Source: Acidobacteriota bacterium (GTDB lineage: Bacteria > Acidobacteriota > Terriglobia > Bryobacterales > Bryobacteraceae). From it: a DNA stretch of 64,000 nucleotides. Where the stretch lies: positions 1-64,000 of the forward strand of contig JAPKYX010000085.1 of the NCBI GenBank assembly GCA_026394075.1. The letters are read 5' to 3'. Both the position numbers and the translations under genes were made by a program. The notes below the pieces were generated by a model. It made no database searches, had not been told where the DNA came from, and was given only the letters and a program-made list of their open reading frames with translations. Shown in pieces: positions 13,858-31,227 of this stretch (positions are counted from its first letter, which is position 1; every line of letters starts with the position of its first letter).

Positions 13858-13952
13858 AATGCTCCCAGTGTACGCCTGGAATGGCTGTTGCGGGCGCATA
13901 TTGTGGGAGCACATAGTCCACCATCTTCGCGCCCGTCTGCTACATTGCGAAG

Positions 13953-16900
13953 ATGCTCCGCTCGCTTCGCCGATCCCTTGTCATCCTGCTATCTTGCGCC
14001 GCCTTTGCCGCGCCTGATCCCAAGCTCTATCAGTCGCTGAAGTACCGCCTGGTCGGCCCCTTCCGGGGTGGTCGTGTGACGGCGGTGGCGGGGGTCGCTT
14101 CGCAGCCCAACACTTACTACTTCGGGGCCACCGGCGGCGGCGTGTTCAAGACCACCGATGGCGGCTTCAATTGGGAGCCCATCACCGACGGCCAGATCGG
14201 CACCGGCTCCGTCGGCGCGGTCAGCGTTTGTGAAGCGGACCCGAATGTGATCTACGCGGGCATGGGCGAAGTGCCGATCCGCGGCAATGTCTCGCATGGC
14301 GATGGCGTCTATAAGTCCACCGACGCGGGCCGCACCTGGACCCGGGCGGGCTTGGGCGACACCCGCCACATCGGCCGTATCCGCATCCACCCGAAGAATT
14401 GCGACATCGCCTACGCGGGCGTCCTGGGCCACATCTTCGGGTCCAGCAAGGAGCGCGGCGTCTACCGCACCCGCGATGGCGGCAAGACCTGGCAGCAAGT
14501 GGGCCCTGTCCGCAATGACCGCACGGGCGTCATCGATCTCGCCATGGACCCGGGCAATGCCAATGTCCTCTATGCCGGTTACTGGGAAGTAAAGCGCACG
14601 CCCTGGAGCCTCGAATCCGGCGGCGCGGGCGGCGGCCTCTTCAAGAGCGTCAACGGCGGCGACACCTGGACCGAACTGACCCGCAATCCCGGCGGCCCCA
14701 AGGGCATCGTCGGCAAGATCGGCTTGACGGTATCGCCCGTCAACCCGGACCGTGTCTGGGCGTTGATCGAGGCCGAAGACGGCGGCGTCTTCCGTTCGGA
14801 GAACGGCGGCAAGACCTGGACCCGCGTCAATGAAGACCGCAACCTTCGCCAGCGTGCCTGGTACTACTCCCGCATCTACGCCGACCCGCAGATTGCGGAT
14901 CGCGTCTATGTGTTGAACGTGCAGTTCTGGCGGTCAAACGACGGCGGCAAGACTTTTGAGGCGATTCCGACGCCGCATGGCGACAACCATGACCTCTGGA
15001 TCGCGCCCCATGATTCGCAACGCCTCATCGAGGGCAACGACGGCGGGGCCAACGTTTCCGGCAACGGCGGCAAGGCCTGGACCTCGCTCTACAATCAGCC
15101 GACCTCGCAGTTCTACCGCGTCACCACTGACAATGAGTGGCCCTACAACATCTACGGCGCGCAGCAGGACAACACTACTGTCCGCATCGCCAGCCGGACG
15201 CTCGATGCTGGGATCGACGAGCGGGCGTGGCACTCGGCAGGCGGCGGCGAATCCGGTTGGATGGCACCGCACCCCAAGGATGCGAACGTCATCTTTGCCG
15301 GCAGCTACGGCGGCTTGCTCACCCGCTATGACCACCGCACGCGGCAGGTCCGCAACGTCACCGTCTGGCCCGACAATCCAATGGGCTATGGCGCTGAAGG
15401 CATGCGCTACCGGTTCCAGTGGAACTTCCCGATTCTGTTTTCGCCGCACGATTCGAACCTGCTCTACGCCGGTGGCAATCGCCTGTTTGCCAGCACCAAT
15501 GAAGGGCAGAGCTGGAAGCCCATCTCGCCCGATCTGACGCGCGACGACAAGTCGAAACAAGGCTCCAGCGGCGGACCGATCACCAAGGACAACACCGGTG
15601 TCGAATACTACTGCACCATCTTCACGGTGGCCGAATCACTGCGCACAAAGGGCGTCATCTGGACCGGGTCCGACGATGGCCTGGTCTATGTGACGCGCGA
15701 TGGAGGCCAGAAGTGGGACAACGTGACGCCGCCCAAAGAGATGATGCCGGAATGGATCCAGATCAACTCGATTGAGTCCTCACCGCACGACCCCGGCACC
15801 GCCTATGTCGCCGCCACCATGTACAAGCACGACGACTTCCAGCCCTATCTCTACAAGACCTCCGACTACGGCAAGACCTGGAAGAAGATCGTCTCGGGCA
15901 TCCCGGCGACGACGTTCACGCGCGTCATCCGGGAAGACCCGGCCCGTCGCGGGCTCCTGTTTGCGGGCACGGAGACGGGCCTCTACGTCTCGTTCAATGA
16001 TGGCGACGCCTGGCAGCCGCTGCAGTTGAATTTGCCCACCGTGCCGATCACCGACTTGACGTTCCAGGCTCGCGAGAAAGATCTGGTGGTGGCGACACAA
16101 GGCCGCGCCTTCTGGGTGTTGGACGACCTGCCGTTGCTGCACCAGTTGACTGACGACCTGGCGGCCAAAGACCTGCATGTCTTCGCGCCGAAGGACGCTT
16201 ATCGCCTACCTGCCGTGGGCTTTAGTGAAGGGCGAGCTAGCGGACCCGTGGGCCAGAATCCCGCGCCCGGGGCTGCCGTCCAGTTCTGGCTGAAGGCGAA
16301 GCCGAAGGACGACGTGAAGCTCGAGTTCCTGGACAGCACCGGCAAGGTGATCCGCGAGGACAAGATGAAGGCGGAAGGTGGTCTCAACCGCTACGTGTGG
16401 GATCTTCGCCATGCTGACGCCAAAACCTTTCCGGGCATCATCATGTGGGCGGGCAACGTCCGCGGACCCCGCGTAATGCCCGGTAACTATCAGGTTCATG
16501 TCACCGCGGCGGGTGCCACCCAGACGCAGAGCTTGACCGTGAAGAAGGACCCGCGCGTCACCACCACGCCGGCCGAGTATCAGCGCCAGCTTGAACTCAG
16601 CCTCCAGCTGCGCGACAAGCTAAGCGACACGCACCAGGCCATTTTGGACATCCGCGACATCCGCAAACAACTCGACGGCGTCACCGATCGCTGGAAAGAT
16701 GCGGCGGAAGGCAAGAAGGTAGTGGAAGCGGCCAAGGCACTCAATGAAAAACTGACGGCGATTGAGCAGGAGCTGTATCAGACCAAGAACCGCTCCAACC
16801 AGGACCCGCTGAATTACCCCATCAAGCTCAACAACAAGCTGGCCGCGTTGCTGGGAGTGGTGCAAAGTGCCGATGCCGCGCCGACCGATCAATCCCGGAT

Positions 16901-17033
16901 GCTGCAGGAAGAACTCAGCACGGCCATCAATGCGCAGATCGGCAAACTGGGTGCGGTGAAGAGGGACGAAGTGCCGGCGTTCAACAAGCTGGTGCGGGAT
17001 GCCAACCTGCCGGCGATTGAGGTGAAGAAGTAG
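13953..17033 (+). CDS. Secreted BNR/sortilin-like beta-propeller protein
   Basis: The 1026-residue protein starts with a signal peptide (MLRSLRRSLVILLSCAAFAA). The body is filled with Asp-box/BNR repeats such as TTDGGFNWEP, STDAGRTWTR, TRDGGKTWQQ, SVNGGDTWTE and SENGGKTWTR, which fold into VPS10/sortilin-like propellers. The last 250 residues form a beta domain (around FLDSTGKVIREDKMKAEGGL) and a helical tail (RKQLDGVTDRWKDAAEGKKV). Large proteins of this type are numerous in Solibacter-like genomes and often labelled glycosyl hydrolase, though no catalytic site is evident here. It is monocistronic. Confidence 0.85.
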   Translation: MLRSLRRSLVILLSCAAFAAPDPKLYQSLKYRLVGPFRGGRVTAVAGVASQPNTYYFGATGGGVFKTTDGGFNWEPITDGQIGTGSVGAVSVCEADPNVIYAGMGEVPIRGNVSHGDGVYKSTDAGRTWTRAGLGDTRHIGRIRIHPKNCDIAYAGVLGHIFGSSKERGVYRTRDGGKTWQQVGPVRNDRTGVIDLAMDPGNANVLYAGYWEVKRTPWSLESGGAGGGLFKSVNGGDTWTELTRNPGGPKGIVGKIGLTVSPVNPDRVWALIEAEDGGVFRSENGGKTWTRVNEDRNLRQRAWYYSRIYADPQIADRVYVLNVQFWRSNDGGKTFEAIPTPHGDNHDLWIAPHDSQRLIEGNDGGANVSGNGGKAWTSLYNQPTSQFYRVTTDNEWPYNIYGAQQDNTTVRIASRTLDAGIDERAWHSAGGGESGWMAPHPKDANVIFAGSYGGLLTRYDHRTRQVRNVTVWPDNPMGYGAEGMRYRFQWNFPILFSPHDSNLLYAGGNRLFASTNEGQSWKPISPDLTRDDKSKQGSSGGPITKDNTGVEYYCTIFTVAESLRTKGVIWTGSDDGLVYVTRDGGQKWDNVTPPKEMMPEWIQINSIESSPHDPGTAYVAATMYKHDDFQPYLYKTSDYGKTWKKIVSGIPATTFTRVIREDPARRGLLFAGTETGLYVSFNDGDAWQPLQLNLPTVPITDLTFQAREKDLVVATQGRAFWVLDDLPLLHQLTDDLAAKDLHVFAPKDAYRLPAVGFSEGRASGPVGQNPAPGAAVQFWLKAKPKDDVKLEFLDSTGKVIREDKMKAEGGLNRYVWDLRHADAKTFPGIIMWAGNVRGPRVMPGNYQVHVTAAGATQTQSLTVKKDPRVTTTPAEYQRQLELSLQLRDKLSDTHQAILDIRDIRKQLDGVTDRWKDAAEGKKVVEAAKALNEKLTAIEQELYQTKNRSNQDPLNYPIKLNNKLAALLGVVQSADAAPTDQSRMLQEELSTAINAQIGKLGAVKRDEVPAFNKLVRDANLPAIEVKK

Positions 17034-17060
17034 GGGCGGGCCAGCATCACCCAAATACGA

Positions 17061-17090
17061 AGGGCTCCGGGATAAAACTCCTGGAGCCCT
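17061..17090. terminator. Hairpin between convergent propeller gene and trxB
   Basis: AGGGCTCC (17061-17068) and GGAGCCCT (17083-17090) form an 8-bp stem, extended inward by GGGA/TCCT around loop TAAAAC. No long T tract follows on either strand, so efficient intrinsic termination is uncertain. It lies between two convergent stops. Confidence 0.5.
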
Positions 17091-17132
17091 CAAGTGCGGA
17101 AGCCAACCTAGGCTCCGCCGTGTACCTATTCC

Positions 17133-18056
17133 CTAGTGGCCTTCGGCTTCCAGGAAGCGCTCCACTTCGATCGCCGCCATGCAACCCGCTCCGGCGGCGG
17201 TGATGGCCTGGCGGTAGGTGCGGTCCTGGACGTCGCCCGCGTGGAAGACGCCGGTGATGTTGGTGCGGGCGCCGCCGTGGGAGATGATGTAGCCGTCCGG
17301 GTCGAGGTCCAGTTGGCCCACAAAGGGCTTGGTGTTGGGGATGTGGCCGATGGCCACAAAGAAGCCCGAGACCTCCTGCCGCCAGACTTCGCCCGAGACC
17401 ACGTTCTTCAGCGTGACGCCGTTGACCGTGTTGGCTTCCACATCGTGGATCTCTTGCACCACCGTGTTCGGCAGCCATTTGATCTTGGGGTTGGCCTTGG
17501 CCCGGTCCAGCATGATCTTGGAGGCGCGGAAATGTTCGTTGCGATGGATCAGCGTCACTTCGCTGGCAAACCGGGTGAGGAAGTTGGCTTCCTCCATGGC
17601 GGAATCGCCGCCACCGACCACGATCACCTTCTCGCCGCGATAAAAGGCGCCGTCACAAGTGGCGCAGCTCGATACGCCATGGCCCACCAGCTTCTTTTCG
17701 CTTTCCAGGCCCAACCAACGGGCGGAGGCTCCGCTGGCCACAATCAGCGTTCGGGTCTCCTGCCATTCGCCATCAATCGAGATGCGGAACGGGCGCTTGG
17801 AGAGGTCGGCTTCAACGACCGTGCCCCAGCGGTACTCCGCGCCGAACCGCTCGGCCTGCTTCTTCATGTTCTGGACCAGCTCCGGGCCCATGATGCCTTC
17901 CGGGAAGCCCGGGAAGTTCTCGACATCGGTGGTGATGGAGAGCTGGCCGCCGGGTTCATGACCTTCCAGAACCAACGGCTTCAGACCGGCGCGCGCCGTG
18001 TAAATGGCTGCGGTGTTTCCGGCGCAGCCTGATCCCAGAATGACAACGTTATGCAC
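17133..18056 (-). CDS. trxB: Thioredoxin-disulfide reductase
   Basis: The product, about 307 residues from the GTG at 18056 (VHNVVILGSGCAGNTAAIYT), is an FAD/NADPH flavoprotein that reduces thioredoxin. Seen are the FAD Rossmann motif GSGCAG (Cys where most TrxB have Pro), the redox-active SCATCDG, the NADPH motif VVGGGDSAMEEA and the C-terminal HAGDVQDRTYRQAITAAGAG. The GTG is preferred over a TTG ten codons upstream because TrxB normally begins directly at this strand. The gene lies 36 bases downstream of the DoxX gene on the same strand. Confidence 0.94.
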   Translation of the reverse strand: MHNVVILGSGCAGNTAAIYTARAGLKPLVLEGHEPGGQLSITTDVENFPGFPEGIMGPELVQNMKKQAERFGAEYRWGTVVEADLSKRPFRISIDGEWQETRTLIVASGASARWLGLESEKKLVGHGVSSCATCDGAFYRGEKVIVVGGGDSAMEEANFLTRFASEVTLIHRNEHFRASKIMLDRAKANPKIKWLPNTVVQEIHDVEANTVNGVTLKNVVSGEVWRQEVSGFFVAIGHIPNTKPFVGQLDLDPDGYIISHGGARTNITGVFHAGDVQDRTYRQAITAAGAGCMAAIEVERFLEAEGH

Positions 18057-18092
18057 AATCCCAGCGTATCGCGACTTGTGCGGCAAGGGTTC

Positions 18093-18500
18093 CTATGCGG
18101 TCGCGGAGCGAACCGGCGACGTTGGTTTATCGGGCTGCGTGCACCACAACACCCACCAGATCAACACCGCCTGCACCGGCAACCGGACCCACAGCACCCA
18201 CTGTGGCACCGGCGCCCCCAACGGAATCTGGTTCAGCGCCATGTGCACGTTGGCCGGGAAGACGGCCACCAACAACGCCACCAGCCACCACGCCGCATAA
18301 CGGCGCAGGGCCGGAATTAAAAGCCCGACACCCCCCACGATCTCCGCCACGCCGCTCAAATAGACCAGCTCCAAGTGCCAGGGCAGGTAGGGCGGCATGA
18401 TCTTCAGGTACGCGGGCGTATTGGTGAAGTGTGCATAGCCCGCAAAGATATAGGCCAGCGCCGCCAGCACCAGGAGTATTCGGCGAATCCAGAAGAGCAC
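18093..18500 (-). CDS. DoxX-like small membrane protein
   Basis: The 135-residue protein has four hydrophobic helices with the DoxX-like pattern LAALAYIFAGYAHFTN, LSGVAEIVGGVGLLIPALRR and a conserved NVHMALNQ. DoxX relatives sit in the inner membrane; characterised members include a quinol oxidase subunit and redox or stress proteins, but most are unknown. The neighbouring trxB could hint at thiol-redox work. Confidence 0.75.
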   Translation of the reverse strand: MLFWIRRILLVLAALAYIFAGYAHFTNTPAYLKIMPPYLPWHLELVYLSGVAEIVGGVGLLIPALRRYAAWWLVALLVAVFPANVHMALNQIPLGAPVPQWVLWVRLPVQAVLIWWVLWCTQPDKPTSPVRSATA

Positions 18501-18540
18501 ACCCTACTGTAGGTGATCCAGGGCGAGCCCGCGGAATCCC

Positions 18541-19064
18541 TTACTTCGACCAGGGCGGCGTCACGCCGATCATGCGCGCATAGGCGATCATCTGGCCCAT
18601 GTGCTCATGGCTGTGCACCAGGATGCGGAGGAAGACGGCGTCGGAGGTAGTGTCCTTGCCCAGAAACTTAATCTTCTTGCTGCGATCGACTGCGGGGTAG
18701 ACCTGCTTCACCGCCTTCTCCGACCGGCCCAACCAAGCCAGCACTTCCGCCTTAGCGGTGATCTTCTTTTCCAGGTCCGGCCGGATCTCCGGCGTATCGT
18801 CGGGAATCTTGCCACCCGCCTGGTCGAGCAGATAGAAGTTGCCGAGCGCGACGTGCATCAGCACCTCGCTCACCGACCGGACACGGGCGCGGGCCGCCAA
18901 GAATACTTGTCCGCCGGAATCGCCTCGGCCAGCTCCTTGATCTGACGAGTAGCCAGCGAAAACTCCGGCATCCAGCCGAGCCCTATTTCGGGATACTGGG
19001 CCTTCGCAGCCACTGCCGCAATCACCAACAGCACACCAGCTTGAGCTAGCCATCGTGTCTGCAT
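18541..19064 (-). pseudogene. DinB-family protein with frameshift
   Basis: ATG at 19064 opens MQTRWLAQAGVLLVIAAVAA, a signal peptide, then a DinB N-terminus (YPEIGLGWMPEFSLATRQIK) reaching ADKYSWRPAP. That frame stops at VSGR. A second frame from about 18885 continues exactly where the family should (VRSVSEVLMHVALGNFYLLD) to ILVHSHEHMGQMIAYARMIG and a stop at 18541. Adding one G near 18884-18886 would restore WRPAPGVRSVSEV. The metal-site His in both halves are intact, so this is a recent mutation or a base-call error rather than an old pseudogene. Confidence 0.8.
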
Positions 19065-25839: not shown

Positions 25840-26081
25840 CAGCGTTTTTATCTTTACTTAATTATACATTCGTCGTATCTCTACTGCGCCTAGCCGTGCT
25901 CTCCCCTGGATGGACGGAAAATCAGGATTTTTTGTCAACTTTCCGTCACAGGCGACCCGTACATATTCAGCGCCAAACATTATCCGTTTAGACGAATTTT
26001 TCACTGGCAATTCAAGATTACGTCGGATATACTCAGCCCACGGCGCGGAACACCGCGCATCACTTCAGTTCAGGGGGCTAT
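25840..26081. other. A+T-rich gap before the sugar dehydrogenase gene
   Basis: These 242 bases hold no convincing gene. The composition drops clearly (TTTTTATCTTTACTTAATTA near 25846, TTTTTTGTCAACTTTCC near 25926). A promoter for the rightward sugar dehydrogenase is expected here, but no clean -35/-10 pair can be chosen by eye. Confidence 0.4.
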
Positions 26082-27683
26082 ATGTACTTTCGCGAAAGCT
26101 GCCGTTCGGCGGCCCGATCTGTCGCGTTCTCACTCATGGTTTCGCTGGCGGCCAACGCCGCGCCAGCGCTCCGGGATCCCAACCTAAAGGTGACCACCGT
26201 CGTCACCGGTCTCACCCAAGCCACCGGTATGGCCTTCATTGGTCCCAACGACTTTTTCGCGATTGAGAAAGCGTCCGGCCGGGTGAAGCGCGTCACCAAC
26301 GGTGTGGTGGTGGCCACCGTGCTGGACCTGCCGGTGAATTCGAATTCTGAGCGTGGCCTGCTGGGCATCGCCCTGCATCCCAACTTCCCCACGACGCCTT
26401 CGGTCTATCTCTACTGGACCGAAAGCAGCACCGGCGCCGACTCCACCGTGGTGCTAGAGGTGGGCAACCCCTCTTCAGCCTTCACCCCGGGCACCCCGCA
26501 ACCGCTGGGCAATCGCGTGGACCGCTTTACGTGGCTGCCCACCAGCAACCAGTTGACCTACGACCGGAACATCATCCAGCTGCACGCGCGCCAGAGTGAT
26601 TTCAATAGCACGGCGACGCCGCTGGTGGCCACTCCGGCGGGCAATCACAACGGCGGCAAGATCGCCTTTGGTCCGGATGGCAAGATCTACATCATGATTG
26701 GCGACAACGGCCGCCGCGGCTGGATGCAGAATCTGGCCAATGGGCCGTACTTGCCGCCAGGTGTCGATGACGAATTTGGCGGGCCGGCTCCGGACAACGC
26801 GCACGTCACGGGCTCGATCTTCCGTCTGAACGATGACGGGTCCACGCCTGCTGATAACCCGTTCTACGCGGCCGGCGCCGCGATTGGCGGTCAGGCGGGT
26901 GCCAACATCCAGAAGCTGAACTCTTACGGCCACCGCAATGGCTTTGGGTTGGCCTTTGATCCGCTCTCGGGCAACCTTTGGAACTCGGAGAACGGTGATG
27001 ATTCCTTCGACGAGATCAACCGAGTGGTACCGGGTGGGAACTATGGCTGGGTGCAGGCGATGGGCCCGATCAGCCGCCTGGCGCAATTCAAGCTGATCGA
27101 GATGAACATGTTCACCCCCAGTGCCACCACCGTCATTGGTGCCGTGCAGCAACTGCGCTATCCGGTGAGCCGCATTGCCTACTCTCCGGCCCTGGCCATG
27201 TCCCGCTTGCTGATGCTGCCCGGAGCCACCTATCGGGACCCTGAAATGAGCTGGCGCTACTCCATCCCGCCGTCGGGTTTGGGCTTCGTCCAAGGCAACG
27301 GCCTGGGCGCGGAATATGCGGGCACCCTGTGGTCCGGCGAAGCGCGCACCACCAACATCATTAATGGCAGCACCGGGACCTTCGCCGGTGGCGTGCTGAT
27401 GCGCTTTAAGCTGACCGCCGACCGGGCACACCTCGACCTCAGCGCTGACCCGCGCCTGGCGGACAAGGTGGCCGACAACGGCATTGGCTATCCGCTGCCC
27501 GTTGGCACTCCGGCCGGCACCGCTGGCTACAAGTTCGACGGCCGCGAGAGCGAAACCCTGATGGTGGGCGACGGCTTCGGCGTCATCACCGACATCAAGA
27601 CCGGCCCGGACGGCAATCTGTATGTGGTGTCCAACACGGACAACGCGGTCTACATGATCAGCCGCAACGTCCTGCTTCCCTAA
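26082..27683 (+). CDS. PQQ-dependent sugar dehydrogenase-like protein
   Basis: The 533-residue protein has a signal peptide (ending near AANAAPA) and the six-bladed propeller fold of soluble glucose/sorbosone dehydrogenases. Evidence: TQATGMAFIGPNDFFAIEKA, ERGLLGIALHPNF, GGKIAFGPDGKIYIMIGDNG, SYGHRNGFGLAFDPLSGNLW and the C-terminal TDIKTGPDGNLYVVSNTDNA. Such enzymes oxidise sugars in the periplasm using PQQ and calcium. Whether this copy binds PQQ is not shown. A PEP-CTERM protein follows 29 bases after it on the same strand. Confidence 0.85.
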   Translation: MYFRESCRSAARSVAFSLMVSLAANAAPALRDPNLKVTTVVTGLTQATGMAFIGPNDFFAIEKASGRVKRVTNGVVVATVLDLPVNSNSERGLLGIALHPNFPTTPSVYLYWTESSTGADSTVVLEVGNPSSAFTPGTPQPLGNRVDRFTWLPTSNQLTYDRNIIQLHARQSDFNSTATPLVATPAGNHNGGKIAFGPDGKIYIMIGDNGRRGWMQNLANGPYLPPGVDDEFGGPAPDNAHVTGSIFRLNDDGSTPADNPFYAAGAAIGGQAGANIQKLNSYGHRNGFGLAFDPLSGNLWNSENGDDSFDEINRVVPGGNYGWVQAMGPISRLAQFKLIEMNMFTPSATTVIGAVQQLRYPVSRIAYSPALAMSRLLMLPGATYRDPEMSWRYSIPPSGLGFVQGNGLGAEYAGTLWSGEARTTNIINGSTGTFAGGVLMRFKLTADRAHLDLSADPRLADKVADNGIGYPLPVGTPAGTAGYKFDGRESETLMVGDGFGVITDIKTGPDGNLYVVSNTDNAVYMISRNVLLP

Positions 27684-27712
27684 ACCAAAACTAACAACGG
27701 AGAACTTTATCC

Positions 27713-28423
27713 ATGAAACAATTCCTTCTCTTGACCGCCCTCCTGGGGGCACTGGTGCCGGCCCAGGCCGGCCAACTGATCACCAACGGTGGCTTTGAAG
27801 CGGGCTTCACCGGCTGGACTCGCGCCGACACGTTGGGTAGCGACGGCACTTTCACCATTCAATCGGGCACCGCCAGCCCCGTCAACGGGGACACGGTTCC
27901 AGCGCCCCCGGGTGGCAGCAACGCCGCCATGAGTGACGCCGCTGGACCTGGTAGCCACGTGCTCTATCAAACGATCACGCTGCCGGGCTTGATGGTCACT
28001 TCCGCGACGCTCAAGTTTGACCTGTTCATCGGCAATCGGGGCGACCTGTTCGCCACGCCCGCCTCAGGAACCCTCGACTTCGGTATCAATGCGTTCAACC
28101 AACAGCTTCGCGTGGATCTGATGGTGGAGGGCAGTGATCCGTTCAGCGTGACGGCTGCCGACATCCTGCAGAAGATCTACCAGAGCAAAGCGGGTGACAC
28201 CCTCATCACCGGCTACAACAACTTCACCATCGATGTGACGTCGCTGGTGAACTCGAACCTCGGCAAGAATATCCGCCTCCGGTTCGCCGAAGTGGACAAC
28301 TACGCTCCGCTGCAGGTGGGCATCGACAATGTCAGCCTGAATGCCGTCCCCGAGCCTTCCTCGGTGGTGATGGCCCTCAGCGCCGCCTTGATCGGCCTGG
28401 TCCGGTTGCGCCGCCGGCCGTAG
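27713..28423 (+). CDS. PEP-CTERM sorting-domain protein
   Basis: The 236-residue protein has a signal peptide (MKQFLLLTALLGALVPAQAG), a jelly-roll-like beta domain (LITNGGFEAGFTGWTRADTL, DNYAPLQVGIDNVSLN) and a classical C-terminal PEP-CTERM tripartite end: VPEPSS, hydrophobic helix, then RLRRRP. Exosortase recognises this tail and processes the protein for the cell surface or extracellular matrix. A purine-rich CGGAG ribosome site precedes the ATG. Likely co-expressed with the sugar dehydrogenase upstream. Confidence 0.9.
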   Translation: MKQFLLLTALLGALVPAQAGQLITNGGFEAGFTGWTRADTLGSDGTFTIQSGTASPVNGDTVPAPPGGSNAAMSDAAGPGSHVLYQTITLPGLMVTSATLKFDLFIGNRGDLFATPASGTLDFGINAFNQQLRVDLMVEGSDPFSVTAADILQKIYQSKAGDTLITGYNNFTIDVTSLVNSNLGKNIRLRFAEVDNYAPLQVGIDNVSLNAVPEPSSVVMALSAALIGLVRLRRRP

Positions 28424-28449
28424 CCATCACTCTTACAACCCACCCTCAA

Positions 28450-28484
28450 CCCGCCGGTCCCAGGATCGGCGGGCTTTCTTCTTT
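28450..28484 (+). terminator. Rho-independent terminator after the PEP-CTERM gene
   Basis: CCCGCCG (28450-28456) pairs with CGGCGGG (28467-28473) around a 10-base loop, followed by CTTTCTTCTTT. The hairpin begins 27 bases after the PEP-CTERM stop. Confidence 0.75.
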
Positions 28485-28543
28485 AGCCCACCCAAAGAAA
28501 GGTACGCCGTCAGGCGGCTGCCGCACGGTAAACTATCGGCGTC

Positions 28544-29729
28544 ATGAGAGTCGCGAAGGTCGAAGCTTTCCTGCTGAGTTGCCCGCTGCCGGAGCCGCTG
28601 ACTCTGCGCTACCACGGCGGGGAGCGGAGATCGGAAGAGCACGGTAGGGAAAGACCACCGCCACATCGAGAGCAAAGTGGCGCCTTTCCTGGTGGGTCAG
28701 CTGTTGAATGATCCCGATCTGCTGCGCGTCAAGTTTCTCCAGCTGTTTCCGGAAGACCCCGCCGCCCGCAAGGCCTACGCGATGGTGGAAATTGCTCTCT
28801 ATGATCTGGCCGCCCAAGCGCAGGAGATCCCCGTATCGGAGCTATTAGGCGGCCGGGATCGGGACCGGATGAAGCTCTATGGTTCAGGCGGCATGTACAT
28901 GCCAGCGGAGCAATACGCTGAAGAGGCCGCGGCGGTTCAGGAGTTGGGCTACCTGGCTTACAAAATGCGGCCAGGCCTCGGCCCGGTGGAAGATCTCCGC
29001 ACCGTTCAATTGATGCGCGAAGCCACCTCGCCCGATTTTGGCTTGATGGTGGACGCCCACACCTGGTGGCGCATGGGCGACCTGAGCTATTCGCCCGAAA
29101 CCGTGTCCCGCCTTGCCCAGGATCTGGCCGAGTTCGATATCGAATGGCTGGAAGAGCCGCTGCCGCCGGATGACCATGAGGCCTATGCCCGCTTGCGCGC
29201 CGAAGGTGCCGTGTCGCTGGCCTCCGGTGAGCATGAGCCATCGGACGAACGCTTCTTCCATCTGATCGCCAACGAGTGCGTCGACTTTGTCCAGGCGGAT
29301 CTGGTCTGCCAAGGCGGCTACTACAGTGGCCGCCGGGTATTGAACGAAACAGCCCGGCAGGATCTGCGGTTCGCCTTCCACAGCTGGGGTACGGAGCTGG
29401 AGGTGATGGTGGCCGCTCAGCTGGGCATCTGCTATCCGGAGTCCGTCGCGGAGTGGCTGGAGTACCCGCTCTACCGGCGCCCGGGCGTGCCGGTGATGTA
29501 CCCGTTCCCGCTGGCGCAAGAGATTTTGGCGGAGCCGCTGCAGATCGAAAATGGTGACCTGATCGTGCCACGGACACCGGGCCTGGGAATCAAAGTGAAT
29601 GAGAAAGTGATCGAGAAGTATCCCTGGATTCCGGGGCCCTGGTCACGGTTCAAGCTGGAATCGCCAGCCGGTGTCTGGGATGTCTCGGGCGACCATAGCG
29701 TCCGCTGGGCCGGGACGGCCGACCACTAA
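28544..29729 (+). pseudogene. Mandelate racemase/muconate lactonizing-type enolase, broken by adapter-like insert
   Basis: ATG at 28544 opens MRVAKVEAFLLSCPLPEPLT then LRYHGGER, a normal N-terminal capping domain. At 28628 the sequence turns into the adapter-like segment. A different frame then carries the rest of the enzyme (HIESKVAPFLVGQLLNDPDL onward, open from GTG 28677) to 29729. The barrel shows YKMRPG, the metal ligands MVDAHTWW and WLEEPLPPDD, SGEHEPSDERFFHLI and FHSWGTELEVMVAA. About 30 residues of the capping domain are missing and the frame is shifted, so the displayed sequence cannot make intact protein. In the real genome the gene is probably intact; it acts on an unidentified acid sugar or similar acid. 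Confidence 0.75.
28628..28654. other. Illumina adapter-like sequence (assembly artefact)
   Basis: AGATCGGAAGAGC at 28628-28640 is exactly the common 13-base start of Illumina TruSeq adapters. It is followed after 3 bases by GTAGGGAAAGA (28644-28654), which is also found a few bases further on in the read-2 adapter. The segment lies inside a conserved gene, replaces about 30 codons and shifts the frame. Confidence 0.85.
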
Positions 29730-29760
29730 GCAACGCAAGCTAGCCCAAGGAAACCAATTC

Positions 29761-30039
29761 ATGTCACCCGCCCTCTCACCCCAACCGCTGACCGACGACG
29801 AACTGGTGGCCCGCATCATCGCGGTGATCGCCCAGACCACGCACAAGCCGGTTGAGGCCTTTCAACCGGATTCGACTTTTGAGGCCCTGGGCATCGACTC
29901 ACTCGACGGCATCCAAATTCTGTTTGCGCTGGAGCAGGAGTTCGATATCTCGATCCCCGATGACGAAGCCAAAAAGATCCGCGCCGTGCCCGATGTCCTG
30001 GCCGGTGTGAAGCAACTACTGGCAGCCAAGCATGCTTAG
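29761..30039 (+). CDS. Acyl carrier protein
   Basis: The 92-residue protein contains the phosphopantetheine site GIDSLDG with the modified Ser, in the setting FEALGIDSLDGIQILFALEQ, and the helical frame ISIPDDEAKKIRAVPDVLAG. It carries acyl chains as thioesters during fatty acid or polyketide-like synthesis. The ATG at 29761 is chosen over in-frame upstream starts inside the enolase gene. It lies 6 bases upstream of a ketosynthase gene, so the two form a unit probably distinct from the housekeeping acpP-fabF. Confidence 0.9.
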   Translation: MSPALSPQPLTDDELVARIIAVIAQTTHKPVEAFQPDSTFEALGIDSLDGIQILFALEQEFDISIPDDEAKKIRAVPDVLAGVKQLLAAKHA

Positions 30040-30045
30040 CCCCCT

Positions 30046-31227
30046 ATGCGCCGCGTAGCCGTCACGGGGCTGGGCGTGGTCAGCGCGATCGGGCAGGGCG
30101 TCGCGGCATTCCGCGATTCGCTGATGGCCGGACGTAGCGGGATCACGGCCATCGAACAGATTGACGTCTCGAAGCTGAAGTTCCGGCATGGTGCGGAGGT
30201 GAAGAACTTCAGCTGGGGCGATGACCGGGAGAGGGTGCTCTACGACCGCTTCGCGTTGATGGCTGGCGCGGCGGCGGAAGAGGCACTGGCCCAAGCGGAG
30301 CTTCCCGCGGATCGCACGGCGGTTGTCACCGGCAGCTGTCTCGGGGGCAATCATTTTGAAGATCAAAGCTTCCGTGAACTTTATGGTGAGCAGCGCACCC
30401 GCTTCAACCCGCTGACCATTCCGCGGATCATGGAGAACGCCCCGGCCAGCCTGATCAGCATGAAGTGGGGTTTTCGCGGACCGGCCTATACCGTGGCCTC
30501 GGCCTGCTCTTCGTCCAACCATGCCATCGGCCAAGCGTTCTGGATGGTGCGCGGCGGCGTGGTGGACGCAGCGGTGTGCGGCGGGTCCGATGCGACGTTC
30601 TCCCTGGGCATTCTGCGCGCCTGGGAGGCGATGCGCGTGGTCAGCCCGGACACCTGCCGCCCTTTCTGCGCCGGCCGTCCAGGCATGATTCTGGGCGAAG
30701 GGGCGGGCATGCTGGTGCTGGAAGAATGGGATCGCGCGGTGGCCCGTGGCGCCACCATCTACGGCGAGATCTGCGGCTTTGGCATGTCCGCCGATGCCCA
30801 TCACATCACTCAGCCCTCGGGCGCTGGCGCAGTGCAGGCGATGCGCTCCGCGCTGGCCGACGGAGGAGTGGCGGCGGAGGCCGTGGGATACATCAACGCC
30901 CATGGCACCGGCACGACGGCCAACGATCCCGTGGAATGCCAGGCCATCCGCCAAGTCTTCGGCAGCAGCAACCCGGCCATCTCGTCCACCAAATCGATGC
31001 ACGGCCACACGCTGGGCGCGGCGGGAGCCATTGAAGCAGTGGCGACCCTGGAGGCCATGAAAGAAGGCTTTCTGCCGCCCACCGCCAACTTCACCACGCA
31101 GGACCCCGAATGCCCGGGCGACATCATCGCCCACGATGCACGCTTGGTGCCGGTGGAGTACGCACTGTCGAACTCGTTTGCCTTTGGTGGCCTCAACGCA
31201 GTGCTGTTGTTGCGCACGGCGCGTTAA
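30046..31227 (+). CDS. Beta-ketoacyl-ACP synthase (FabF/FabB-like)
   Basis: The 393-residue thiolase-fold enzyme condenses malonyl-ACP with an acyl chain. Start: RRVAVTGLGVVSAIGQGVAA. The catalytic Cys lies in TVASACSSSNHAIGQ, the first His in NAHGTGTTANDPVE and the second in KSMHGHTLGAAGA. The C-terminal SFAFGGLNAVLLLR is typical. It follows the dedicated acyl carrier protein. Whether the pair makes special fatty acids or a lipid modification is unknown; the usual reductase and dehydratase genes are not next to it. Confidence 0.92.
   Translation: MRRVAVTGLGVVSAIGQGVAAFRDSLMAGRSGITAIEQIDVSKLKFRHGAEVKNFSWGDDRERVLYDRFALMAGAAAEEALAQAELPADRTAVVTGSCLGGNHFEDQSFRELYGEQRTRFNPLTIPRIMENAPASLISMKWGFRGPAYTVASACSSSNHAIGQAFWMVRGGVVDAAVCGGSDATFSLGILRAWEAMRVVSPDTCRPFCAGRPGMILGEGAGMLVLEEWDRAVARGATIYGEICGFGMSADAHHITQPSGAGAVQAMRSALADGGVAAEAVGYINAHGTGTTANDPVECQAIRQVFGSSNPAISSTKSMHGHTLGAAGAIEAVATLEAMKEGFLPPTANFTTQDPECPGDIIAHDARLVPVEYALSNSFAFGGLNAVLLLRTAR

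Follow-up and report, generated by a model that had tools for sequence, protein, structure and literature searches.

Adapter contamination of microbial assemblies is known and is concentrated at contig ends (PMC11536531). TruSeq contamination of draft assemblies combines the universal AGATCGGAAGAG(C) with, directly after it, read-2-specific sequence (CGTCGTGTAGGGAAAGAGTGT, printed in the same paper), and is usually an exact adapter at a contig end. The window, by which we mean the whole 64,000-nucleotide stretch of DNA analysed here, likewise belongs to a draft assembly and carries the same succession of universal and read-2-specific adapter bases, but in an internal position, where it has ACG instead of GTCGT and takes the place of 89 native bases. 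The interrupted gene resembles the MR_MLE acid-sugar dehydratases of the enolase superfamily in its MR_MLE_C domain, in the part of an MR_MLE_N domain that is still matched and in having close intact Bryobacteraceae relatives, and differs from them in that the artefact interrupts the window copy and in a best NCBIfam equivalog score under the cutoff (116 bits against 750, with none of the equivalog cutoffs reached). We are almost certain that the consensus has incorporated a remnant of a library adapter and that the break in the gene is an assembly error, not biology.

The remnant is of Illumina TruSeq read-2 type, foreign to the genome, and occupies positions 28628–28654 on the plus strand as AGATCGGAAGAGC, ACG and GTAGGGAAAGA. 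The first motif (13 bases), which contains the universal 12–13 adapter bases AGATCGGAAGAG(C), is exact at 28628–28640 on the plus strand, and the second (11 bases), which belongs to the read-2-specific part and follows GTCGT there, is exact at 28644–28654 on the same strand. The two motifs keep the adapter order and are separated by 3 bases (ACG), compared with 5 (GTCGT) in the real adapter. As alignment queries we used what we take to be the Illumina TruSeq read-1 and read-2 adapters. Aligned locally with the read-2 adapter, the 27 bases cover 29 columns, of which one is a mismatch and two are single-base gaps, and score 18; among 60-base stretches taken from both strands of the rest of the window at 20-base steps, none scores above 10. 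The first 15 of the 27 bases are in addition identical to the read-1 adapter, so the segment may be a mixture of the two adapters.

AGATCGGAAGAGC has a sole copy in the window, even with one mismatch allowed (0.05 expected), and each of the two motifs occurs once in the 5,765,239-base, 302-contig assembly. When the assembly was searched by BLAST with both adapters concatenated, the 27 bases were the top match of the genome, and no second place was convincing, the other matches being 14–19 bases long with E values of about 3 or more. The segment is missing from the homologous sequence of relatives. The 29-column alignment and the uniqueness of the motifs bear out the reading, made in an earlier note, of positions 28628–28654 as an Illumina adapter.

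The adapter segment lies in an MR_MLE gene of the enolase superfamily that extends from an ATG at 28544 to a stop at 29729. Translation and alignment with two sister loci divide this gene into a 5′ fragment of 28 codons (28544–28627, plus strand; MRVAKVEAFLLSCPLPEPLTLRYHGGER), after which the sequence is out of frame, and a 3′ part in another frame (28655–29729, plus strand) that shares 99% protein identity with the intact copy of the first sister. The sister loci are L001 (CANGYQ010000001, a Bryobacteraceae MAG) and L002 (JAPKYZ010000081, a Lac Pavin MAG). We equate them with two genomes of the same genus, G001 and G002 respectively, and the gene is intact in both. In comparison with them, 89 native bases are swapped for 27 at 28628–28654, a net change of −62 bases that removes about 30 codons and therefore the frame, exactly at the adapter, as the earlier note had proposed. 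In the sisters, the 89 bases are conserved in-frame coding sequence and stand between GGGGAGCGG and CCACCGCC (CTCACCGCC in L002). The start of the adapter coincides exactly with the end of the native sequence, which is what ligation predicts. A search for the missing native segment across the assembly, including contig ends and a possible second copy, returned distant paralogues only.

The gene-caller ORF within the 3′ part covers 28677–29729 (350 residues) and starts at an internal GTG at 28677. Its MR_MLE_C barrel domain is complete (PF13378, E=4.8e-45), and upstream of the barrel the MR_MLE_N capping domain is matched above the cutoff at profile positions 63–117 only, compared with positions 22–117 in the intact sister, a shortening that results from the artefact. 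The assignment to the enolase superfamily in the earlier note holds, and its expectation of an intact gene of about 1.2–1.3 kb fits L001, in which the frame is open from the gene's own ATG through the whole 350-residue match. The intact relatives belong to the MR_MLE group, their nearest PDB match is the galactonate dehydratase 5olc (E=6e-40), and the sequence likely denotes an acid-sugar dehydratase-like function, for which we leave the substrate unspecified. In the living organism, the gene is most likely intact, about 1.25 kb long, and encodes a sugar-acid dehydratase-like member of the mandelate racemase/muconate lactonizing group.

Both flanks of the lesion are collinear with G002 (left, 25975–28632; right, 28656–31226), and the right flank follows G001 closely from 28649 onwards, in an alignment of 3,228 columns (3.2 kb) that has 94% identity and contains 4 gap bases. 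It follows that the two pieces are genuinely adjacent and that the assembly orders and orients them correctly. The surrounding genes, all on the plus strand, are intact: upstream, a gene for a 236-residue protein with a C-terminal PEP-CTERM-like motif (27713–28423; Pfam score 19.6, just under the cutoff of 20.7), and downstream, genes for an acyl carrier protein-like protein with a PP-binding domain (29761–30039) and a beta-ketoacyl-ACP synthase II (FabF)-like protein (30046–31227). A neighbouring glucose/sorbosone dehydrogenase-like gene is also an uninterrupted ORF. Given the collinear flanks and the intact neighbouring genes, the damage is local. The surrounding consensus had been called doubtful, and this holds for the lesion itself but is overstated beyond it, where the flanks match the sisters and the neighbouring genes are full length.

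Several features count against an artefact. The adapter match is imperfect, with ACG for GTCGT; the segment is internal, 28.6 kb into a contig of 78,650 bases, and so lacks the usual outward-pointing position at a contig end; the assembly holds only one instance; and the native CATCGGCTGGGCACC of the sister is partly like AGATCGGAAGAGCAC, so that MAFFT is able to align both. Contig-end location is a usual, not a defining, trait of adapter contamination. That part of the 27 bases can be aligned with native sequence (ATCGGxxGxGCAC) would suit a natural deletion pseudogene, a very recent frameshift in the population that arose through one deletion of about 52 bases, another of about 10 and a few substitutions, with the adapter likeness due to chance; the intact look of the rest of the gene and of its neighbours is also what a very recent pseudogene would present. 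We regard this origin as highly improbable, since the 13- and 11-base motifs, each present only once in 5.77 Mb, stand together in adapter order, and since the adapter score of the segment is nearly twice the best found elsewhere in the window. The homologues point the same way: none of 68 carries a similar lesion. Upstream of the matched region, every one of the 68 testable homologous loci has 60 or more open codons, compared with 25 open codons in the window, the last few alone being native, and the 30 homologous loci displayed share a conserved segment, with KRD at its core, that is absent from the window. The adapter match and the intact homologues together support the view that the break is an assembly error.

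Our preferred reading, the incorporation of an adapter remnant during assembly, would begin with short-insert read-through, through which a contig ending at 28627 came to carry an adapter tail. Merging, scaffolding or gap-closing would have joined this tailed end to its true neighbour, starting at about 28655, and the joining step would have kept the tail untrimmed and lost the 89 native bases. We infer the joining of a tailed end from the position of the adapter, 28.6 kb inside a 78.65-kb contig, in comparison with the contig ends at which it is found in viral assemblies (below). Alternatively, an adapter fragment may have been ligated between genomic pieces in the library, yielding a physical chimera and not a software join, which would still be an artefact. 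Faults in oligo synthesis could account for the single mismatch and for both of the one-base gaps seen here. Random fragments, however, would rarely be adjacent, ordered and co-oriented as these flanks are; since these two lie close together and in the correct order, we rank ligation in the library below contig-end joining and consider it unlikely.

Adapter sequence is also found in other assemblies. Of 297 genomes sampled from the phylum, 34 contain AGATCGGAAGAGC and just a handful contain the same string read backwards; among 396 genomes of the phylum, none besides the present one contains the motif pair. One genome of the phylum, G302, has 23 exact copies of AGATCGGAAGAGC, several of them at contig base 1 on the reverse strand, and its assembly is heavily adapter-contaminated. 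The exact 27-base hybrid was not found in IMG/VR viral contigs, and a search of these contigs with a relaxed spacer returned at least 120 ordinary TruSeq read-2 adapter tails. In all 83 viral-contig cases examined, the motif pair points outward from the nearer contig end, at a median of 13 bases and a maximum of 299 bases from it, and the spacer is GTCGT in 81 of the 83. Some of the tailed viral contigs (L112–L191), among them L152, L158 and L171, are tailed at both ends and could pass for contigs with inverted terminal repeats. The present case is ordinary, known contamination, unusual solely in its internal position.

The importance of the lesion is confined to data quality. Automated annotation would report either a pseudogene or a 350-residue protein whose N-terminal domain is truncated, and a reader could mistake the pair of gene fragments for a biological frameshift. 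Adapter scraps can lie buried inside contigs, where contig-end trimming would miss them.

The comparison with the sister genomes also revealed differences outside the lesion. G001 lacks the stretch corresponding to window positions 25841–28500, which holds the glucose/sorbosone dehydrogenase-like and PEP-CTERM-like genes and is collinear in G002; its alignment skips from window position 25840 to approximately the start of the MR_MLE gene across about 200 bases. This difference between G001 and G002 would be a lineage-specific gene loss or gain. Finally, window positions 13936–18649 align with G001 at about 94% identity in an orientation inverted relative to the adjoining collinear blocks.
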